From IMG/VR virus record IMGVR_UViG_3300021085_000275, positions 1-20,579 of that record: a DNA stretch of 20,579 bases. One strand, 5' to 3'. Position numbers and translations under genes: made by a program. Origin of the DNA: a virus. This document shows, one piece after another, positions 1-8,772 of the stretch. Below the pieces are notes generated by a model. It saw only the letters and a program-made list of their open reading frames with translations. It ran no database searches and was not told where the DNA came from. Position 1 is the stretch's first letter; every line of letters begins with the position of its first letter.

Positions 1-2
1 CT

Positions 3-623
3 GATAAGCATATGGTATTCAGTTTTGGACGATTCAATCCTCCGACTGCTGGTCACAGTAAAGTTGTTGACCACGTTATGAAGACTGCTGAAAAGCACGG
101 TGCAGATCACAAGGTTATTGTTAGTCACTCACAAGACAAGCACAAGAATCCTTTATCAGGTCAGCACAAAGTTGATTATGTAAAGCACATACACCCTGAT
201 GCAAATGTTGAGGCGTCAAGTAAAGAACATCCTCACTTCATGGCACACTTAGCCAAGATGCACAAAGAAGGATACACACACGCTACGATGGTCGCAGGTT
301 CAGATAGAGTAGAAGAGTTTCAAAAACTCGCTGATAAATACAATGGCCCTAACGGTCAGTATCATTTCAAACATCTCAAAGTAGTCTCGGCAGGTCACAG
401 AGATCCAGACGCAGAAGGCACAACAGGCGTTAGTGGCACAAAGATGCGAGCGCATGCATCTAACAACGATTATAAATCATTCAAGTCAGGTTTGCATCCT
501 AATGCATCTGACGAACACGCTAAAAAATTATTTCAAGCTACTCGTAGTGGCATGGGACTACAAGAAGACCAGACTAGATTATCTTTTGGAGCATTTTTAA
601 ATGAACAGAGAAGCAGTATTTAA
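3..623 (+). CDS. Nucleotidyltransferase (cytidylyl/NMN-adenylyltransferase-like), 5' end outside window
   Basis: The protein belongs to the HxGH nucleotidyltransferase superfamily, which transfers NMP from an NTP to a small substrate; the substrate here is unknown. Near its start is GRFNPPTAGH, the P-loop-like nucleotide-binding motif with the NPPTxGH signature, and near residue 140 (counted from the ATG at 12) is GVSGTKMRA, the ISSTxxR-type second motif. Between them, a Gly-Ser-Asp-Arg stretch (AGSDRVEEF) fits the fold core. The reading frame is open to the window edge, and the first motif sits only a few residues after the ATG at 12, so the true start is probably upstream. The C-terminus carries SFGAFLNE (residues 191-198), a peptide resembling T4 capsid-targeting sequences and repeated in other proteins here. 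The 3' end overlaps the lysozyme gene by 23 bases. Related proteins in marine T4-like phages have no settled role; I can only suggest nucleotide or cofactor metabolism, or a packaged enzyme. Confidence 0.85.
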   Translation, partial: DKHMVFSFGRFNPPTAGHSKVVDHVMKTAEKHGADHKVIVSHSQDKHKNPLSGQHKVDYVKHIHPDANVEASSKEHPHFMAHLAKMHKEGYTHATMVAGSDRVEEFQKLADKYNGPNGQYHFKHLKVVSAGHRDPDAEGTTGVSGTKMRAHASNNDYKSFKSGLHPNASDEHAKKLFQATRSGMGLQEDQTRLSFGAFLNEQRSSI

Positions 624-1062
624 TCAATTAAAAGAAGATGAAGGAGTAGTATATGCAATCTATCTCGACCATCTCGGGCTCCCAACCTTTGGCGTCGGTC
701 ATCTTGTCCTCAAAAGTGACGAGGAATTCGGAGCATCAGTTGGAACAGCAGTTACTGAAGAACGAGTCAGGGCATGTTTCGAGCGAGACCTCGATACTGC
801 AATTAGCGAGTGTGGAACTCTATACGGAGAAGGGACGTTTGGAGGACTACCAGATGAAGTCCAGCAGATTCTGGTTAACATGATGTTCAACATGGGGCGT
901 CCTCGTCTCAGTGGATTCAAGAAGTTTAATGCCGCAATCGCAGACGGCGACTGGAAAGAAGCTGCGAAAGAAGGCAGAGACAGCCGTTGGTACAATCAAG
1001 TCACCAATCGTGCTGAAAGATTAATGGTAAGGCTTGAGAATTTAGAGAGTGTAGACAGATGA
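601..1062 (+). CDS. T4-type lysozyme (GH24 muramidase)
   Basis: This is a 153-aa glycoside hydrolase family 24 enzyme that cuts the MurNAc-GlcNAc bond of peptidoglycan. The T4 lysozyme triad is visible with correct spacing: Glu14 in LKEDEG, Asp23 in YLDHLG, and Thr29 in PTFGVGHL (T4 E11, D20, T26). Length is close to T4 e lysozyme (164 aa), and the C-terminal R-W-Y-N/R-A-E-R segment is typical of the family. There is no signal peptide or SAR membrane segment, so release to the periplasm would need a holin. GGAG at 588-591 lies 9 bases before the ATG. The start is inside the end of the upstream gene, and the stop overlaps the next start (ATGA). A free-standing enzyme near spanins suggests the endolysin. 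A tail-associated lysozyme is the alternative, but no gp5-like tail domain is attached. Confidence 0.93.
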   Translation: MNREAVFNQLKEDEGVVYAIYLDHLGLPTFGVGHLVLKSDEEFGASVGTAVTEERVRACFERDLDTAISECGTLYGEGTFGGLPDEVQQILVNMMFNMGRPRLSGFKKFNAAIADGDWKEAAKEGRDSRWYNQVTNRAERLMVRLENLESVDR

Positions 1063-1262
1063 GACAACAATTGATTAATGCAAGTAAAAAACATTTTGAA
1101 GCACACGTTGAAAAGCACAAAATGAATGTTGAGGTGTATTTGACAAATCCTGCAGGAATAGGAGAACACTCTGATATCATGGAAGCAATTGAAGGCGAGC
1201 TTGCACAAATGGCAGAATATGAAGACAAACTAGAAATGATTAACAAATATTTTGGAGAATAA
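1059..1262 (+). CDS. Small conserved phage protein, unknown function
   Basis: A 67-aa, mostly helical, charged protein. Its central segment VYLTNPAGIGEHSDIMEAIE, followed by an Ala-Glu-Tyr-Glu-Asp stretch, matches a small family I recognise from marine T4-like phages, usually unnamed. There is no membrane segment, cysteine motif or catalytic signature. The start overlaps the lysozyme stop (ATGA), and GAGAG at 1045-1049 could serve as ribosome binding site, so the two genes are probably translationally coupled. Position within the lysozyme-DUF1353 block suggests shared late expression, but I cannot assign a role. Confidence 0.8.
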   Translation: MRQQLINASKKHFEAHVEKHKMNVEVYLTNPAGIGEHSDIMEAIEGELAQMAEYEDKLEMINKYFGE

Positions 1263-1264
1263 TA

Positions 1265-1735
1265 ATGGCGAAATTTAATAGATTACTAGACGCAGACTTT
1301 CAACCCCCTAGAACATGGATTCTAGACCTCTCTCTTACATACGACTCAGACTGTTTGAACGAAACAGAAGCTGCATCTCTCAAAGCAGTGGGCGCAAAAA
1401 TAAACAAGAATAACAAAATCACTGTACCCAAAGGATTTAAAACTGATCTAGCGTCCGTACCTAGAGCAGCGTGGATGTTTGTTGCACCATTCGACATCGC
1501 CCGTGCAGGTGTTGTACATGACTATTTGTATTACTGCATTCGCCAATATCGTGCTGCGGCAGGTGAAGGGCAAGATGAGATTTTAGTTCAGAATGCCAAG
1601 AATGCTGCCGACAAAGTATTCAAAGAAGCAATGGACGTTTCAGCAGATCATATCTCAGGTTGGAAGAAAGTTATTGCACACAAGGCGGTATCTTTATTCG
1701 GTCACAGTTCAATAGTACCTAGAGAAGAACTGTAA
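1265..1735 (+). CDS. DUF1353 family protein
   Basis: A 156-aa protein with the pattern of the DUF1353 family, found in many tailed phages and some bacteria. The signatures are VPKGFKTDLASVPR (residues 54-67), HDYLYY (85-90) and ADKVFKEAM (115-123). The conserved His-Asp and the polar TDLASVPR strand look like a small enzymatic or binding site, but the activity is not known to me. In tailed phages the family often lies near tail or lysis genes, which agrees with its place beside the lysozyme. GGAG at 1254-1257 is 7 bases upstream of the ATG. The stop overlaps the next ATG (TAATG). The C-terminal 30 residues are hydrophobic and basic but do not form a clear membrane helix. Confidence 0.85.
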   Translation: MAKFNRLLDADFQPPRTWILDLSLTYDSDCLNETEAASLKAVGAKINKNNKITVPKGFKTDLASVPRAAWMFVAPFDIARAGVVHDYLYYCIRQYRAAAGEGQDEILVQNAKNAADKVFKEAMDVSADHISGWKKVIAHKAVSLFGHSSIVPREEL

Positions 1736-2316
1736 TGTGGATACTACTTATCAGGTCAGCAGTCACCGGAGTATTTGGTTCTGCGTTTGGTAAGTGGTTT
1801 CTTTCCACTCGAATGGGAAGATGGTTTCAAACTAAACTTGACACTTTTATGGAATATCTTGCTAATAAGTATAATATAAAAGTAGCAAAGAAAGAAATTG
1901 CCTGGTCGCAAGCTTATCCAAATCTTGCTAATAGAATTGAACTATTAGAAAATTGGTCACACAGACCACTCACTCGTGATGGCTCTATAGATTTAAAAAC
2001 TGAAATTGGTATGTTAAAAAAAGAAATTATAAATATAAAATCTACACCAACTGTTATTGAATCAACAATTGATCCGAACGATGAGATTGTTAAATTACAT
2101 TCTTCAATAGAAGAATTAAAAACTTCTCATAGTGTTGGTTTAAACGATGAGATTGTTAAATTGCATGCAACAATAGAAGAACTGAAACAAGATACTAATT
2201 TCAAAGAGGATCTTATTAGATTGCAGAAAGAACATGAAGAGTTGAAAGTGATTATATCAAATATGAAGCAGTCTAGACCGAATGAGCGTGTAAGAACTAG
2301 AAATAATCAGAATTAA
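1735..2316 (+). CDS. N-terminal hydrophobic segment plus repeated coiled coil, possible lysis or membrane protein
   Basis: A 193-aa protein. Residues 1-24 are hydrophobic with few charges and could be a membrane helix or amphipathic anchor. A basic, Trp-containing segment follows (RMGRWFQTKLDTF). The C-terminal half is a coiled coil with an internal duplication: the 15-residue unit NDEIVKLHSSIEELK (115-129) recurs as NDEIVKLHATIEELK (137-151), with a degenerate third copy ending at residue 171. The tail is basic. The gene starts on the preceding stop (TAATG). Its place between the lysozyme/DUF1353 genes and the spanin pair makes a holin-like or lysis-regulating role conceivable, since T4 holin also has one N-terminal membrane segment and a large soluble domain. 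No sequence motif proves this. An exact TATAAATA lies inside the gene at 2028-2035. Confidence 0.7.
   Translation: MWILLIRSAVTGVFGSAFGKWFLSTRMGRWFQTKLDTFMEYLANKYNIKVAKKEIAWSQAYPNLANRIELLENWSHRPLTRDGSIDLKTEIGMLKKEIINIKSTPTVIESTIDPNDEIVKLHSSIEELKTSHSVGLNDEIVKLHATIEELKQDTNFKEDLIRLQKEHEELKVIISNMKQSRPNERVRTRNNQN
2028..2035 (+). promoter_or_regulatory. Intragenic late promoter octamer, exact TATAAATA (weak candidate)
   Basis: Exact consensus, but inside the coiled-coil gene and almost 300 bases before the next start codon (2326). It could give an extra late transcript for the small basic protein, the spanins and the 646-aa protein. Equally it may be a chance match in AT-rich coding sequence (Ile-Ile-Asn-Ile codons). 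Confidence 0.3.
2077..2187 (+). repeat. Direct repeat, 66-bp period, inside coiled-coil gene
   Basis: A 24-base unit beginning AACGATGAGATTGTTAAATT occurs at 2077-2100 and 2143-2166 with a single mismatch. The following 21 bases of each copy are more diverged (both encode xxIEELK). The period is 66 bp, in frame, adding exactly 22 residues per copy. The near-identity of the 5' part points to a recent in-frame duplication. Confidence 0.85.
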
Positions 2317-2325
2317 GGATTGACC

Positions 2326-2607
2326 ATGAAATCATTTAAAGAATTCTTAGAAGAAAAAAGAGGTGCAGACTCTAAGGGACATTACAGAGCAACAGAAGAC
2401 GGCGCAGGGATGACTGCCAAGGGCGCAAAAGCAGCAGGAGTAAAAACTGCTGTCACTACGCCACCAAGTAAGCTAAAGAAAGGTAGCAAGGCTGCAGCCA
2501 GAAGAAAATCTTTCTGTGCAAGAATGGGTGGAATGAAAGGTCCCATGAAAGATGAGAAGGGTCGCCCAACTCGTAAGGCTATGTCATTGAGACGGTGGAA
2601 CTGCTGA
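2326..2607 (+). CDS. Small basic protein with N-terminal capsid-targeting-like peptide (DUF6321-like)
   Basis: A 93-aa, strongly basic protein. I choose the ATG at 2326 rather than the in-frame TTG at 2320, because AAGGA at 2315-2319 is then 6 bases away and the protein starts with MKSFKEFLEEKR. That start closely resembles the T4 capsid-targeting sequence MKTYQEFIAE of internal proteins, which ends in a prohead-protease-type Leu-x-Glu site. After it come GAGMTAKGAKAAGVKTAVTT, a Pro-Pro-Ser-Lys-Leu-Lys-Lys-Gly linker, RRKSFCARMGGMKGPMKDEK, and a C-terminal Arg-Arg-Trp-Asn-Cys. The GMTAKG...RKSFCARM...RRWNC pattern recurs in marine phage proteins (I recall it as DUF6321; not checked). The stop overlaps the next ATG (TGATG). 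The high Lys/Arg content would suit DNA binding in the head, as for T4 internal proteins. The function is inferred only. Confidence 0.82.
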   Translation: MKSFKEFLEEKRGADSKGHYRATEDGAGMTAKGAKAAGVKTAVTTPPSKLKKGSKAAARRKSFCARMGGMKGPMKDEKGRPTRKAMSLRRWNC

Positions 2608-2996
2608 TGAAAATTGCATTATTCTTCTTTCTAATTATGTGTGGTATGGGCGCTGTCGGATACTTTTACTACAACGACACGCAAGATAGATTGGCGCAAC
2701 TCAGAGAAAATAATACTAGACTTGAAATTGCCGCACAGACTAGCCAAGAAACAATTGGCAGAATGCAAGAAGATGCTGCACAATTTGAAGAAGCGAATAC
2801 AAAACTTCGTGCAGAACTAAGCCAAGCAGAAGAGTATTCAGACGATCTTGCAAGTAAATTAAGAAGACATAATCTAACTGTCCTGACTTTACAAAAACCA
2901 GGCCTTATTGAAACGAGAGTGAACAATGCAACAGCAAAGTTATTTGATGAAATGGAAAACATTACGGGTAAGTCTGCTCCTGCTACTGCTGAGTAG
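2607..2996 (+). CDS. Inner-membrane spanin (Rz-like, i-spanin)
   Basis: A 129-aa protein with one N-terminal membrane helix (about residues 2-22, MKIALFFFLIMCGMGAVGYF) and then a long periplasmic coiled coil (25-100). It ends with KPGLIETRVNNATAKLFDEM, the type of ending seen in Rz-like spanins of T4-like marine phages. With the lipoprotein encoded by the overlapping gene it should span the periplasm and fuse inner and outer membranes at the last step of lysis of a Gram-negative cell. The ATG at 2607 overlaps the previous stop and has GGTGGA at 2594-2599 before it; the in-frame GTG at 2595 is less likely. The downstream o-spanin gene begins inside this gene, the classical overlapping Rz/Rz1 layout in part. 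Confidence 0.82.
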   Translation: MKIALFFFLIMCGMGAVGYFYYNDTQDRLAQLRENNTRLEIAAQTSQETIGRMQEDAAQFEEANTKLRAELSQAEEYSDDLASKLRRHNLTVLTLQKPGLIETRVNNATAKLFDEMENITGKSAPATAE

Positions 2997-3345
2997 TACG
3001 ACTGCCTGTTCTCTATTTCCTTCACGCAAACCTGAAGAAGTTGTAATAACTCAGGTAGAATATGTAGAAAGGACTATTCCTACACAACCTCGTCCTAAGC
3101 CTGTATCTCTATATGACATAGAGTTTTATGCTGTCACAGAAGAAAACCTAGATGAGTTTTTGGAAAGATTCGAAAAAGAAAACGGCGACATAGTATTCTT
3201 TGCTATCAGTGTTCCTGATTACGAAAACATATCACTAAATATGGGTGAGTTAAGACGATTTATAGAACAACAAAAATCTATTATTCTATACTACGAAGAA
3301 AATGCAAACCCTAAAAAGGTAGAAGAGACAGATGAAGAGCTTTAA
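2926..3345 (+). CDS. Outer-membrane spanin lipoprotein (Rz1-like, o-spanin)
   Basis: A 139-aa predicted lipoprotein. A basic start is followed by a run of leucines and the lipobox-like SSTTAC, giving Cys28 as the lipidated residue (counted from the ATG at 2926). Ser at +2 favours sorting to the outer membrane. The mature part begins with a Pro-rich stretch (RTIPTQPRPKPVS), as in many Rz1 proteins, and continues with an acidic domain of about 90 residues, longer than lambda Rz1. The gene starts inside the i-spanin gene in another frame (71-base overlap). GAGAG at 2915-2919 supports ATG 2926, and ATG 2947 (MKWKTLRVS) is an alternative that still keeps the whole signal sequence. It overlaps the next gene by 14 bases. 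The -3 position of the lipobox is Thr rather than Leu, which is permitted but not ideal. Confidence 0.8.
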   Translation: MQQQSYLMKWKTLRVSLLLLLLSSTTACSLFPSRKPEEVVITQVEYVERTIPTQPRPKPVSLYDIEFYAVTEENLDEFLERFEKENGDIVFFAISVPDYENISLNMGELRRFIEQQKSIILYYEENANPKKVEETDEEL

Positions 3346-5272
3346 AGATCATTTAGAAGAAGGCGGACTTTGGGATAATATCCACGCAAAGAGAAAGCGC
3401 ATTAAAGGCGGCGCAAAAGAGCGTATGCGTAAGCCTGGTTCTAAAGGAGCACCTACAGCACAAGACTTCAGAGATTCTCAGAACGAAGAGAAAGAAAAGG
3501 GCGTTGACGGCAAAGCATGCTGGAAAGGCTACAAGCGCATGGGTACCAAGAAGAAAGGCGGCAAGACTGTCGATAACTGTGTTCCTATGGAAGATGTAGC
3601 CAGTGTACAGCCTATGAGCGGTCCTACTGGCTCTATGTTTGCTATGAAGAAAGAAGGCAAAGAACATTCTTGGAAGTCAGAAGGACACTATACTAAAGAC
3701 GGCAAAGAGTGGACAGGTCCTCAACACGCACACGATGGCCAAGTAATGACAGGCGAGAAGCACACCGCTGATAGTCAAGACCTATATCACTACAAAGAAC
3801 TATCTAAAGAAGCTCAAGATAAAGTAGAAAAGAAGCATGAGATTAAAGAAGATGAGTCGTCTTCGTATGAACCACCAAAATCTTTAGATCAAATCGAAAA
3901 AGATTATTCTAGAGGAGCGAAAAAGCCAGTAGATGTAAGAAAATATAAAGGTGCAAGACCTGATCTCGCTGCGATTAAAAGACGCAAAGCTATAGAAAAA
4001 CATCAAGCAAGAAAACAAGAAAAAGATTATTGGGATGAAGCTACTTCAGACATGGCAGAACCTAAGAAAACTCAGCATTTAAAAAATATGCAGAAAGCTG
4101 AAATCCACCGAATAGCTATGCACAAAAAATATAGTAAAGTGAAACATGATACTAGTGTTGGCAGAAAAGACGGTATAAAAGCCCCAGCCACTTTGACTAA
4201 AACTATGCATGGAGATACAGTAGATAGTCAAGCACAAAGAATTGCAAGGCAAAACATAGAAAAGAGAAAAGAACAAAAAGCATTACACAGCTATTGGGAT
4301 GATGATACAGACTACACAAAAGGCTGCCCAATCTTAGAAAAACTCGATGCAACTAAGAACAGCATTGGCGACTATGTAAAAGATTTTAGTAAGTCTGATG
4401 CGCCTCAGTTCAAAGGTAGAAGCTCTTCTAAGCGCAGACAAATGGCAGTTGCTTCTTACTTAAAGTCTAAGAGAAGGGACGGTGAGAGAGCATTAGGTGA
4501 AACTATCAAGTACAACTCAGACATGGGTGCTATGGATTGGGGAACACCTGCTGGCACAGATTACATGAAAGATGTAACTCCTGGTCAGAAGAATCCTAAA
4601 GAAGCACCTATCAAGCCTCTAGAACAGTCTACTCTTCGAGCGTTGAATGTGCGTGATGTCTACACAAAAGAAGAAACTGAAGCGGGCGAGACTAAAGCAG
4701 AATACAGAAAAGATAATGCTGAAGACGCTCCTGAGTTAGGTGATTACGCTCTCACAAAACAAGACATCAAAGAACTTGAGTACGAAGCAGATCATATGTC
4801 ATATGAAGATGCGCTTCAGTTAGGCATGTTTGATGATGATGACGAAGAGCCAGAAGTAAACATTCTCGAAGCACTGTCTATGCAAGGAAGAATGAAGCGC
4901 AGATTTACTGCTAGAAAGAATAGACAAAGACTAAAAGTTGCTCGTGGCATTGCACTTAGACGAGGATCATCTCCGGATCGTCTAAAGAAAAGAGCGCAAC
5001 GTGGCGCAAAGGGTATGATTTATAAGAGACTACTGAAGGGACGAGACAAGTCAAAGCTCCCACCAGCAGAGAAGGGTCGCCTTGAGAAGCTCATCGGCAT
5101 GTATGCTCCCTTGGTGTCAAGGCTAGCCACTAGAATGTTGCCAGGTATGCGTAAGTTAGAAATCAATCGCATGAAGAACAGAAAAGGCGGCGCACAAAAA
5201 TCTAAGAAGTATAAAGCAGCACGGCCTACTGCTAAGAAGCAAACAGCTAAGAAATTCAAAATTAAAAAATAA
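3332..5272 (+). CDS. Large basic modular protein with capsid-targeting-like N-terminus (putative internal head protein)
   Basis: A 646-aa, very Lys/Arg-rich protein without membrane segments. It starts with MKSFKDHLEEGG, similar to the T4 internal-protein targeting peptide MKTYQEFIAE and to the start of the 93-aa protein at 2326. It then reads as a chain of short modules: LWDNIHAKRKRIKGG...RKPGSKGAP (13-41), KACWKGYKRMGTKKKGGKTV followed by DNC (61-83), an EGHYTKDGKEWTGPQ module (117-131), two YWD(E/D)xT units (233-238 and 321-326), SSSKRRQMAVASYLKSKRRD (364-383), and a C-terminal helical module from ILEALSMQGRMKRRF (511-525) to about 615. I recognise several of these as segments that recur in different combinations in marine T4-like phage proteins. 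Overlap with the o-spanin gene is 14 bases, and the gene is followed by a late promoter for the next unit. A packaged DNA-condensing or ejected protein is my inference; a scaffold-core role is the alternative. Confidence 0.8.
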   Translation: MKSFKDHLEEGGLWDNIHAKRKRIKGGAKERMRKPGSKGAPTAQDFRDSQNEEKEKGVDGKACWKGYKRMGTKKKGGKTVDNCVPMEDVASVQPMSGPTGSMFAMKKEGKEHSWKSEGHYTKDGKEWTGPQHAHDGQVMTGEKHTADSQDLYHYKELSKEAQDKVEKKHEIKEDESSSYEPPKSLDQIEKDYSRGAKKPVDVRKYKGARPDLAAIKRRKAIEKHQARKQEKDYWDEATSDMAEPKKTQHLKNMQKAEIHRIAMHKKYSKVKHDTSVGRKDGIKAPATLTKTMHGDTVDSQAQRIARQNIEKRKEQKALHSYWDDDTDYTKGCPILEKLDATKNSIGDYVKDFSKSDAPQFKGRSSSKRRQMAVASYLKSKRRDGERALGETIKYNSDMGAMDWGTPAGTDYMKDVTPGQKNPKEAPIKPLEQSTLRALNVRDVYTKEETEAGETKAEYRKDNAEDAPELGDYALTKQDIKELEYEADHMSYEDALQLGMFDDDDEEPEVNILEALSMQGRMKRRFTARKNRQRLKVARGIALRRGSSPDRLKKRAQRGAKGMIYKRLLKGRDKSKLPPAEKGRLEKLIGMYAPLVSRLATRMLPGMRKLEINRMKNRKGGAQKSKKYKAARPTAKKQTAKKFKIKK

Positions 5273-5710: not shown

Positions 5711-6970
5711 ATGGATAAACAAAATAAACAACGATTAGAACAGCTAGTACGCCAAGGCCTCGTCCCTAGCCGAAAACTCCCCATGCTTATGAAAGCCATG
5801 AGTAATCTCCACATGGGCAAGCAACTCACGCCCACAGAAAGAGATACCTTATCAAAGTATATGTTCAACATGACAGACATTATGTTGAAGGACGATACTG
5901 TTTTCAATCGTGCCAAATTACATACACAAAAGACAAAATATCAAACGGAGGAGTCTACCGTGGACTTAGATGAGAAGATGGTTGATGGCGTTGAAGTAGT
6001 AGACGGCCCAGAAGAAGAAAATAAAAAGATGAAGATGAAAAAAGAAAAAGATGTGAAAGAGTCTAGAGAAGGCGATGAAGAAGAGAGAATGCGTAAGAAA
6101 GAAGAGAACAAAGCAAGACGCCTCTCTATTCGCAAACGTGACAAGTTCCGTATGCTTCCCTCTGAACTAAAGAAAGAAAAAATGAAAGCTGGTCTTGAAG
6201 AAGATGTTGCTAAAATCAACGAAGACTATAAAGCTATGTTTGAAACTGCTCTAGAATGTTACGGGATTGACAACATTCGAGACCTTCCAGAAGAAAAGAA
6301 AGCAGAATTCTTTAAAGTAGTAGATATAGCACTTGAAGAAGCTAAGATGGCTAAGAAAGACCATGATGGCGACGGCAAAGTTGAAACTTCTACAGCGGAA
6401 TACATGGGTTCACGAGACAAAGCTATCAAGAAAGCTATGAAGAAAGAAGAAGTAGAACAGGTCGATGAACTGAAAAAGTCTACTCTTTCTTCATACATTC
6501 AGAAGGCAGCAGATCCTGTAGCTAAAAAGTCAAATGTAAACCTTGCTTCTAAAGCAGCACACAAGTTAGCAACTTCAGATGACATGGATGCAGGCGAGAA
6601 AGAAGACCGTAAAGCATTTGTGAGAAGCAAAGGTATTCAGACAGCAGCCAAGAAACTTGCTAAAGAAGAAGTAGAACTTACATTCGAAGAAATGACACCG
6701 CAGCAAAAAGCTGATAGACTAAGATTGATTGCTAAGAAAGCTGACTACGTTCAAAGCGGCGCTGCTGCTAAAGCTGTTAAGAAGCAAGCAAAGACAGACA
6801 TGAAGCAAAAAGGTGCCCAGAAAGGCATGGCTCCTACTAAGAAAGATGTAGAAGAGCAAGTTGCTGCTATCAGAAAAACAATTAAAGAAGGCACAGTAAA
6901 AGAAAAAATCGAAGCCTTCAAAGAACTCAACACAATTATAGAGCAATTTAAAACCACAGGAGAACTATAA
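5711..6970 (+). CDS. Lys/Glu-rich modular virion-type protein (putative internal head or scaffold protein)
   Basis: A 419-aa highly charged protein with no membrane segment. Residues 1-75 form a compact helical domain (LVRQGLVPSRKLPMLMKAM). A Lys/Glu low-complexity linker (100-135) follows, then a helical segment (165-212). Next are an EF-hand-like loop DHDGDGKVETST (217-228) leading into AEYMGSRDKAIKKAMKKE, a VDELKKSTLSSYIQKAAD module (251-268), LTFEEMTPQQK (323-333) and helical Lys-rich repeats. I recognise the DHDGDGK...GSRDKAIKKAM and VDELKKSTLSSY modules as recurring in marine T4-like phage proteins. An exact late promoter lies 5 bases before the ATG. GGAGGAG at 5947-5953, 6 bases before the in-frame GTG at 5960, looks like an internal start site. 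The stop overlaps the next ATG. A head-interior or scaffold role is inferred. Confidence 0.78.
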   Translation: MDKQNKQRLEQLVRQGLVPSRKLPMLMKAMSNLHMGKQLTPTERDTLSKYMFNMTDIMLKDDTVFNRAKLHTQKTKYQTEESTVDLDEKMVDGVEVVDGPEEENKKMKMKKEKDVKESREGDEEERMRKKEENKARRLSIRKRDKFRMLPSELKKEKMKAGLEEDVAKINEDYKAMFETALECYGIDNIRDLPEEKKAEFFKVVDIALEEAKMAKKDHDGDGKVETSTAEYMGSRDKAIKKAMKKEEVEQVDELKKSTLSSYIQKAADPVAKKSNVNLASKAAHKLATSDDMDAGEKEDRKAFVRSKGIQTAAKKLAKEEVELTFEEMTPQQKADRLRLIAKKADYVQSGAAAKAVKKQAKTDMKQKGAQKGMAPTKKDVEEQVAAIRKTIKEGTVKEKIEAFKELNTIIEQFKTTGEL

Positions 6971-7852: not shown

Positions 7853-8230
7853 ATGCTACAATTGAATGAAGATAATTTTTTGATTTATGCGATAAAAAAT
7901 TATTATAGCCCGGGTTCACTCGGAATGAAAGATTTAGAAGACGACTTAAAAAAGTTCAAGTATGTTAAGCGTCTTCTAGGTCGTTATAAAAAGACTGGTG
8001 AAGTCAGCGAACGACTAGTACTAAATCATCTAGTTGTCATATACAATGTTTTCGGCGATGCGGCAACAGATATGTTGTTTTACAAGTTAGAGCCAGAATA
8101 TTGGTCAGACTTGAAAACATATCTTGTTTACTTACATAGAATGCCACTAGAGACTGTAGTTTCTCCTGGTATAAAAGAAACAGATATTCCTTTGAATAAT
8201 GAACTCATAGCAATACTAAGGAAACTATAG
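7853..8230 (+). CDS. Conserved T4-like phage protein of unknown function
   Basis: A 125-aa mainly helical protein. The segments FKYVKRLLGRYKKTGEVSER, LVLNHLVVIYNVFG and YWSDLKTYLVYLHRMP are the hallmarks of a protein family I recognise across T4-like marine phages (unnamed, a DUF). It has no catalytic motif or membrane segment that I can point to. AGGA at 7842-7845, which overlaps the previous stop, is 7 bases from the ATG. The gene ends exactly where the next one begins (TAGTG overlap). Its constant association with the next gene in such phages (from memory) suggests a shared structural or assembly function. Confidence 0.78.
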   Translation: MLQLNEDNFLIYAIKNYYSPGSLGMKDLEDDLKKFKYVKRLLGRYKKTGEVSERLVLNHLVVIYNVFGDAATDMLFYKLEPEYWSDLKTYLVYLHRMPLETVVSPGIKETDIPLNNELIAILRKL

Positions 8231-8772
8231 TGGCACGACTCGCAGATGCATATGTAACGTACAGAATCATTAGGATGCTCGCTACTCCTATTGAGAAATC
8301 TGATGCCTATAAAATGGGTATCATTGATGCTGACGGTAAAAAGATTAAAAATCCTACTACATCATCTGAGAAAGACGCTTACTCCTTACTACAAAGATTC
8401 GTGTTCAAAGTACAACGGGCACTGATGAAATCGCCTGATAGAAATGCAAAAAGACTCTTGACAGTAGCAGCAGCTATGAGTATACTAAGAGAACATGACG
8501 AGACTACACTAGAAACTTATACAGAGCAAGACATTGAAGCTCTATTAGACATGTATGAGACGGACGAGAGTGTAGAAAGACAATCCAAATTACTAGAACA
8601 CAATGTTATTTCCTTCAATACTTTTTTAAGTGAAGAAGGTGTTGTCGCCAATGCAGTTGGCGGCGGCGGTATCGATGGCATTGGTGTAGGACCTAAAGGC
8701 GAACCTGGAAGAGATCCAGTTATGATGCCAATGGTTCGCAGAAAAAAGAAGAAGAAAGATGCCAACAGTTAA
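8230..8772 (+). CDS. Conserved virion-type protein with SFNTFLSEEG and GxGxGPxGEPG tail (GTG start)
   Basis: A 180-aa protein starting with GTG (8230), supported by AAGGAAA at 8218-8224 and by overlap with the preceding stop. The N-terminal domain (LADAYVTYRIIRMLATPIEK, DAYKMGIIDADGKKIK, SEKDAYSLLQRFVFKVQRAL) is helical and conserved in marine T4-like phages. After residue 125 it carries SFNTFLSEEG (128-137), the capsid-targeting/protease-site-like peptide seen in other proteins of this window. Then come a Gly-rich tail, GGGGIDGIGVGPKGEPG (144-160), and a basic end, RRKKKKKD. The tail type recurs on several head-associated proteins of such phages. A head or neck component, possibly processed after Glu135 or Glu136, is a reasonable inference. 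Confidence 0.75.
   Translation: MARLADAYVTYRIIRMLATPIEKSDAYKMGIIDADGKKIKNPTTSSEKDAYSLLQRFVFKVQRALMKSPDRNAKRLLTVAAAMSILREHDETTLETYTEQDIEALLDMYETDESVERQSKLLEHNVISFNTFLSEEGVVANAVGGGGIDGIGVGPKGEPGRDPVMMPMVRRKKKKKDANS

Follow-up and report, generated by a model that had tools for sequence, protein, structure and literature searches.

The DNA analysed here, hereafter the window, is the entire 20,579-base IMG/VR record IMGVR_UViG_3300021085_000275, which is probably a genome fragment. On its plus strand, an uninterrupted open reading frame (ORF) at 3332-5272 runs from ATG to stop and encodes a protein of 646 amino acids (aa; pI 9.7, net charge +47). A modest balance of probability favours the view that it serves a marine T4-like phage as an internal head protein, targeted to the capsid, partitioned by a protease and composed of exchangeable modules in a chain. 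Its leader at the N-terminus would bring it into the prohead core, where the prohead protease would take off the leader and cut at internal [I/L/V]-x-E joints, and the separate products would be released and packed with the DNA. The predicted products are approximately a block of LWDN, CWK, a capsid piece and SEGHY, followed by one M6a, a second M6a, SDAPQ, GAMDW-TEAGE and a strongly basic CTERM helix domain. Because the pieces would part at the joints, each module could be added, lost or moved without harm to its neighbours, and the gene could thus accumulate them.

The computation supports the modules, their exchange, the leader, the enrichment of the motif at joints, its depletion in module interiors and the presence of the protease in relatives. 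Head targeting of the 646-aa protein is fairly well supported, and partition by a prohead protease is likely, judging from the sequences compared. We infer that the protein is cut at its internal joints, that the units come free of one another and enter the host by ejection, and that the modules have some function.

Modules and their exchange among relatives

Seventeen module profiles were made from the window protein and its relatives. The features of the protein are listed below; a slash marks the candidate cut.

3332-5272, plus strand: mosaic protein, candidate for head targeting, 646 aa (ORF scan, module profiles)
3332-3361, plus strand: capsid-targeting-like leader MKSFKDHLEE, ending in LxE (T4 IPIII leader rule; relatives' leaders)
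3365-3478, plus strand: module LWDN, residues 12-49 (profile 4e-23; phrog_16028; stand-alone proteins in T7-like phages)
3515-3586, plus strand: module CWK, residues 62-85 (profile 2.3e-13; present in S-CREM2 gp160 too)
3593-3649, plus strand: piece like the N-terminal region of the major capsid protein, residues ~88-106 (placed at 88-105 by profile; sub-threshold Pfam Gp23; match to relatives' major capsid protein)
3671-3826, plus strand: module SEGHY, residues 114-165 (profile 2.9e-28; absent from contigs L017 and L004)
3848-3850, plus strand: putative joint E173, IKE/D (motif at a profile-defined boundary)
3914-4045, plus strand: module M6a, copy 1, residues 195-238 (profile)
4058-4060, plus strand: doubtful joint E243, MAE/P (proline after Glu is rare at such sites)
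4199-4309, plus strand: module M6a, copy 2, residues 290-326 (profile)
4337-4474, plus strand: module SDAPQ, residues 336-381, opening at putative joint ILE336/K (profile 1.7e-24)
4499-4501, plus strand: putative joint E390, LGE/T (motif at a profile-defined boundary)
4511-4585, plus strand: module GAMDW, residues 394-418 (profile 1.7e-12)
4679-4816, plus strand: module TEAGE, residues 450-495, an acidic region with one inner site, E481, IKE/L (profile)
4868-5269, plus strand: module CTERM, residues 513-646 (profile match 513-615), opening at putative joint ILE513/A (profile 2.9e-38)

An earlier note, made from the letters alone, had described a string of short, basic modules. The profiles confirmed the modules, M6a being present twice, but the predicted segments 391-481 and 482-513 are acidic (net -6 and -13). 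The four strings which that note had recognised all fall within stretches found in other phages or contigs: the LWDN stretch (residues 12-56) in T7-like phages and others, the CWKGYK stretch (52-87) in many contigs, the SKRRQMA stretch (334-383) in Synechococcus and Prochlorococcus phages, and the GRMKRR stretch (~497-620) in phages of Sinorhizobium, Pelagibacter and Stenotrophomonas. In Pfam, the 646-aa protein matched a single family at E <= 1, Gp23 (PF07068), and this match is below threshold: it covers residues 87-164 only and scores 23.2 bits against a curated cut-off of 24.4. The Gp23-like part, which the earlier note had not noticed, appears by its extent and score to be a captured piece and not a capsid protein. 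A full-length AlphaFold model from the single sequence had a mean pLDDT of 54.6 and was not interpreted.

At least one module was present in 690 ORFs, in 106 combinations, among 427 sequences. Removal of redundancy (90% identity over 90% of length) reduced 182 multi-module proteins to 142, each with two or more modules and together displaying 82 architectures. Of 108 co-occurring module pairs, 24 were found in both orders, many of them with one order seen only once or twice; gain and loss without reordering is thereby ruled out. The tabulation of co-occurrence and order that the earlier note had called for thus points to a mosaic, as it had proposed, and the constant full-length architecture looked for in relatives was not encountered. 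A stable single gene is ruled out as well, since none of the 94 phage records that match at E <= 0.01 covers 80% of the query and relatives differ by whole modules. TEAGE follows GAMDW in 21 of 21 proteins and CTERM comes last in 52 of 55; therefore the protein is not a free mosaic throughout: its front varies, whereas its back is fairly constant. The proposed collection of domains by recombination accordingly holds for gain, loss, changes of order and a near-clonal case, but not for the near-constant back.

The near-clonal case is contig L017. Its match to the window runs from window base 1 to 3649, the end of the capsid-protein piece, at 99.89% identity (3,649 nt). Past this point L017 is without SEGHY and its middle differs, except for 68 nt that match at 97%; it rejoins the window at 4292-4409 (118 of 118 bases identical), at its contig end. 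Five further contigs (L002, L003, L004, L011 and L012) retain most neighbour genes at 44-98% protein identity, and the module set is each contig's own. On these alignments, module exchange at 3332-5272 is recent and near-clonal.

The C-terminal module was modelled separately. The AlphaFold prediction, made from a 61-sequence alignment, has a mean pLDDT of 85.4 and a pTM of 0.59; it shows a basic helical domain in which the first helix begins four residues past Glu513. This glutamate is kept in 57 of the 61 CTERM sequences, and the third residue before the candidate cut (P3) is I, L, V or M in 42 of those 57, against a background of 18%. Searches of the PDB gave no match to CTERM by fold at E <= 0.001 or by sequence at E <= 1. 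Against a viral structure library there were eleven matches at E <= 0.001, all to proteins of other phages, including phiM12 and cytidyltransferase-domain proteins.

Leader, joints and prohead protease

In the T4 IPIII leader, positions 4 and 7 are described as serving targeting and positions 8 and 10 processing (PMC9026906). MKSFKDHLEE has a hydrophobic L8 and E10, as at both processing positions of a T4-type leader of ~10 residues, and the targeting-like N-terminus seen earlier fits the IPIII rule. Cargo behind such leaders in relatives comprises LWDN, WFGK, CWK, GAMDW, RHGV, a P-loop kinase and a cytidyltransferase. The same modules stand directly behind the leader in some proteins and behind an internal [ILVM]xE in others. 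Many other mosaic proteins open with a shorter stretch or no leader. A P-loop kinase-like domain was also observed near the N-terminus in L089, L094, L118, L123 and others, ahead of the same modules and following a leader-like or short [IL]xE stretch.

The T4 prohead protease, gp21, is reported to cleave after L/I-x-E (PMC9026906). Module edges were drawn, independently of the motif, from BLAST alignments among the 142 proteins, using high-scoring segment pairs (HSPs) of at least 45% identity and at least 25 residues and edges more than 25 residues from an end. Of 1488 start edges, 509 carried [ILVM]xE, which is 2.46 times what random shifts predict; for end edges the count was 754 of 1824 and the ratio 2.96. 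Strict [IL]xE gave 2.66 at starts and 2.43 at ends. The z-scores overstate certainty because the tested proteins are related to one another. When similar contexts were collapsed, the ratio for [ILVM]xE was 2.08 at starts (952 contexts) and 2.55 at ends (1063), and [AGST]xE, [ILVM]xK and [ILVM]xD gave 0.85-1.22. At profile-defined joints, counted for modules that have their first profile columns and start more than 25 residues from the protein start, the motif was present in 241 of 315 contexts. Linkers contained it 743 times against an expected 503 +/- 20, with I, L and V favoured at P3 and proline rare after Glu; [DE]xE and [AGST]xE were not enriched there. Module cores contained it 10 times against 95.5 +/- 9.4 after shuffling (346 cores from 14 families; TEAGE and the enzyme domains CYT and KIN excluded), and interiors fell below expectation in 14 of 17 families, CYT lying above. 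In the window protein itself, six of seven sites are at module boundaries and one is inside TEAGE. Beyond what the earlier note had claimed, the joints thus appear, from residue counts, to tend toward [ILVM]xE, near the T4 protease motif.

The prohead protease family PF03420 was found in the records of 8 of 12 relatives. A second scan took 50 of the 111 multi-module loci; 14 of these records had it, including all 12 of 99 kb or more, and all 36 records without it were <74 kb. The capsid proteins of seven relatives and phage S-CREM2 have [IL]xE/A at residues 51-56 in six of eight, with LME/T in one and FSE/A in one; by analogy with T4 these would be the capsid-protein cut sites. Residues 88-106 of the window protein match the L439 major capsid protein at 79% identity over 19 aa (E 3.6e-5, eight sequences searched). 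S-CREM2 gp160 has a neighbouring capsid stretch, with 75% identity over 24 aa and, at the nucleotide level, 73% over 66 nt of the S-CREM2 capsid gene, and both stretches lie within ~35 residues after the presumed cut site. That such pieces serve docking is speculation, suggested because two captures come from one capsid-protein region. Separately, proteins of ~90-112 aa with a stretch like the capsid protein just past the presumed cut site were noted in L188 (6048-6384), L292, L306, L332 and L346.

Virion evidence and competing explanations

Evidence from virions comes from S-CREM2, in which the gene order is similar to that of the window: gp154, gp155, gp156, gp157-gp159, gp160, UvrC, primase, nrdA and nrdB. 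The 52 S-CREM2 virion proteins in Table 3 of the published study include gp154, gp155, gp156 and gp160, the last with 7 unique peptides, and its authors caution that regulatory proteins may be purification carry-over (PMC10665884). gp154 is a cytidylyltransferase with the leader MKNFSSFLTE/A, and a cytidylyltransferase is reported from S-SM1 virions as well (PMC3037559). gp160 matches the WFGK (6e-13) and CWK (5.8e-9) profiles, has a SAYANG-like end by eye only, and carries [ILV]xE between modules (KLSE, VHE, LEE, EISE). A tight leader pattern, picked after viewing the sequences and not fitted by gp160, was present in 7 of the 50 virion proteins compared and in 1 of the 166 others (p 1.7e-4), one of the seven, the baseplate protein gp122, probably being a chance match. 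Looser patterns were weaker (loose, 8 of 50 against 12 of 166, p 0.06; position-restricted, 5 of 50 against 4 of 166, p 0.03). These tests omit gp85, gp130 and gp200, two of them virion proteins, which straddled sequence pieces. The virion-detected gp6, gp12 and gp14 (an S-adenosylmethionine hydrolase, a Cas9-like nuclease and an APH-like kinase) start leader-like and are among the seven, and their N-termini suggest that they may be head-packaged enzymes.

In four of the five T7-like phages compared, LWDN makes up an entire protein of 49-58 aa, encoded among the head genes; the fifth, S-RIP2, has it at the start of a 170-aa ORF. Stand-alone LWDN proteins among head genes fit a head role and indicate that the module can exist alone. 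Together with the presence of the related gp160 in S-CREM2 virions, this supports the head role proposed earlier.

Several observations weigh against a leader-targeted protein cut at its joints. No cleavage product has been observed, so cutting at the internal joints stays a prediction from sequence. Among the 137 mosaic proteins whose 5' end is closed, the leader pattern covers 33 (24 of 606 others), which is low, and CWK is the single profile that gp160 shares with the window protein, WFGK and SAYANG occurring in the window's relatives. Of the 315 joint contexts, 74 are without [ILVM]xE, which is found at 7 of 22 DUF6321 joints, 1 of 3 G23 joints and 0 of 5 M6a joints. Six of ten boundaries in the window protein have the motif; the four without it are LWDN/CWK, CWK/capsid piece, capsid piece/SEGHY and GAMDW/TEAGE, and the site MAE/P appears unfavourable. 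Depletion is weaker in the cores of all families (116 against 213). Other motifs are also raised at start and end edges, namely [KR]xE (1.23/1.82), [FYW]xE (1.48/0.80), [AGST]xE (1.22/1.31) and the reversed Ex[ILVM] (1.9/2.2), the last dropping to 1.25/1.16 at positions free of overlap with [ILVM]xE. When other proteins of the same contigs served as a control, the ratios for [ILVM]xE were 2.14 and 1.85, although this set was contaminated, 9 of the 14 leading entries shown being, by eye, homologues of the mosaic ORF 5711-6970. After removal of that family and linked proteins, the small cleaned control was mixed, with 0.82 at 26 starts and 2.26 at 49 ends, and [ILVM]xK likewise reached 2.23 at those ends. 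The window record, a probable fragment of 20.6 kb, gave no match to PF03420.

The missing sites at four of ten boundaries would be expected if the protein lost its leader only and stayed one long basic protein round the DNA, with internal [ILVM]xE left as scars of leader-gene fusions. Internal leader-like sequences, such as the one ahead of LWDN in L389, also favour this account: 11 were observed against 3.5 expected, with a maximum of 9 in 200 shuffles. We nevertheless consider it rather unlikely, as interiors are depleted of the motif in most families, and linkers keep I, L or V at P3 and avoid proline after Glu. The interior depletion, P3 preference and proline avoidance together suggest continued cutting rather than relics. 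It is improbable, to a greater degree, that the mosaic has no link to proteolysis, the motif coming along with acidic, flexible linkers as a by-product and the N-terminal likeness being incidental. The somewhat raised level of several other motifs at edges and the excess of two motifs at HSP ends in the leftover control speak for such a by-product. [DE]xE and [AGST]xE, however, rise just 1.2-1.3 times at edges and are flat in linkers, unlike [ILVM]xE, and S-CREM2 virions are enriched in leader-like proteins by the tight pattern and, more weakly, by the looser ones. The least probable of the alternatives, for which we see little chance, is a sacrificial core or scaffold protein that is cut up and expelled like T4 gp22, gp67 and gp68. 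A protease of this kind is described as breaking T4 core proteins into several pieces (PMC9026906), and the S-CREM2 scaffold gp144 has many sites, but most modules here are spared internally and gp160 is found in virions, though scaffold and protease were detected there too.

A partitioned, head-targeted protein might also belong to a wider plug-in cargo system in marine T4-like phages, a tentative idea that is possible but doubtful. L/I/V-x-E would then be a universal joint, so that any enzyme or peptide set behind a leader or joint would be packed and freed in the head; cargo would be exchanged near-clonally, capsid fragments would dock to the shell, and the freed modules would be passed into the host and act there early on.

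Relation to known systems and neighbouring genes

T4 IPI, IPII, IPIII and Alt are alike in having a short leader cut after L/I-x-E, in being basic and in combining a conserved leader with diverse cargo (PMC9026906, PMC3012670); they carry one cargo per leader, whereas the window protein has several chained modules with further protease-type joints. Pfam and PHROG searches gave no match that ties the body of the protein to IPI, IPII, IPIII, Alt, gp22 or gp67. T4 gp22 and gp67 share multiple prohead-protease cuts with the proposed scheme but are reduced to small fragments, unlike the modules in the window, which mostly lack internal sites. Polyvalent proteins likewise have multiple units per polypeptide, with predicted virion transport and splitting by a peptidase, and are described as having catalogued domains and often an embedded metallopeptidase (PMC5512222). 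For the window protein, the peptidase would have to be supplied in trans, and most modules are short and of no known fold; Pfam shows in it neither two or more catalogued domains nor an embedded peptidase, which places it outside that class. In P1, an N-terminal signal packs DarB and other large head-packaged Dar proteins into the head; these are from another phage and have a longer signal (between 9 and 30 residues), the comparison being by description (PMC9024508). S-CREM2 gp160 and cyanophage gp114-type proteins have CWK and WFGK by profile, and gp160 also shares the locus order and kind of joint, but their module content is otherwise different. Syn9 gp114 and S-SM1_115 end in DUF6321 and adjoin the terminase small-subunit gene.

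Leaders with diverse single cargo are known in T-even phages (PMC3012670). Polyvalent proteins are a known case of several units packaged as one protein (PMC5512222), and shuffling of fragments has been described for phage proteins at large (PMC10684548). No description of chained modular head proteins was found in the titles and abstract openings of the top matches in the open-licence literature on capsid targeting, internal head proteins, prohead protease, polyproteins, T4-like cyanophages and domain shuffling, and no paper on DUF6321 in a phage context was found there. If the partitioned-head-protein reading is true, many unannotated proteins of marine T4-like phages would become readable, with leader and joints predicting head cargo and cut points. 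It would provide a phage protein chain partitioned by a protease acting in trans and a simple reason for the tolerance of rapid module exchange. One gene might supply several small proteins inside the virus particle, and short conserved phage peptides that lack a known role would become testable head cargo.

Among the matches listed, none of the eight best named phages exceeds 42% identity to the window primase, and the major capsid protein of a 125-kb relative, G001, is 68% identical to those of phages of Methylophilales and Pelagibacter. Because of these values, the source is, as far as such identities can place it, an uncultured lineage of marine T4-like phages. Near 3332-5272 there is also an Rz-like spanin, and farther along are the primase and a ribonucleotide reductase. 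Other window ORFs, judged by their sequence, are presumably lysozyme and thyX. Two neighbours of the mosaic gene are listed here:

2320-2607, plus strand: leader-bearing neighbour, MKSFKEFLEE/ followed by a DUF6321 module (ORF, Pfam, leader-pattern scan)
5711-6970, plus strand: second type of mosaic protein, with many [ILVM]xE sites

The N-terminal domain of ORF 5711-6970 is conserved, and its homologues vary segment by segment too. A cytidyltransferase-like ORF at 12-623 ends C-terminally in the leader-like stretch LSFGAFLNE. ORF 8230-8772 has an internal leader-like ISFNTFLSE near its C-terminus, and in its relatives the region past this stretch is weakly like the N-terminal region of the capsid protein (E 0.003-0.008).

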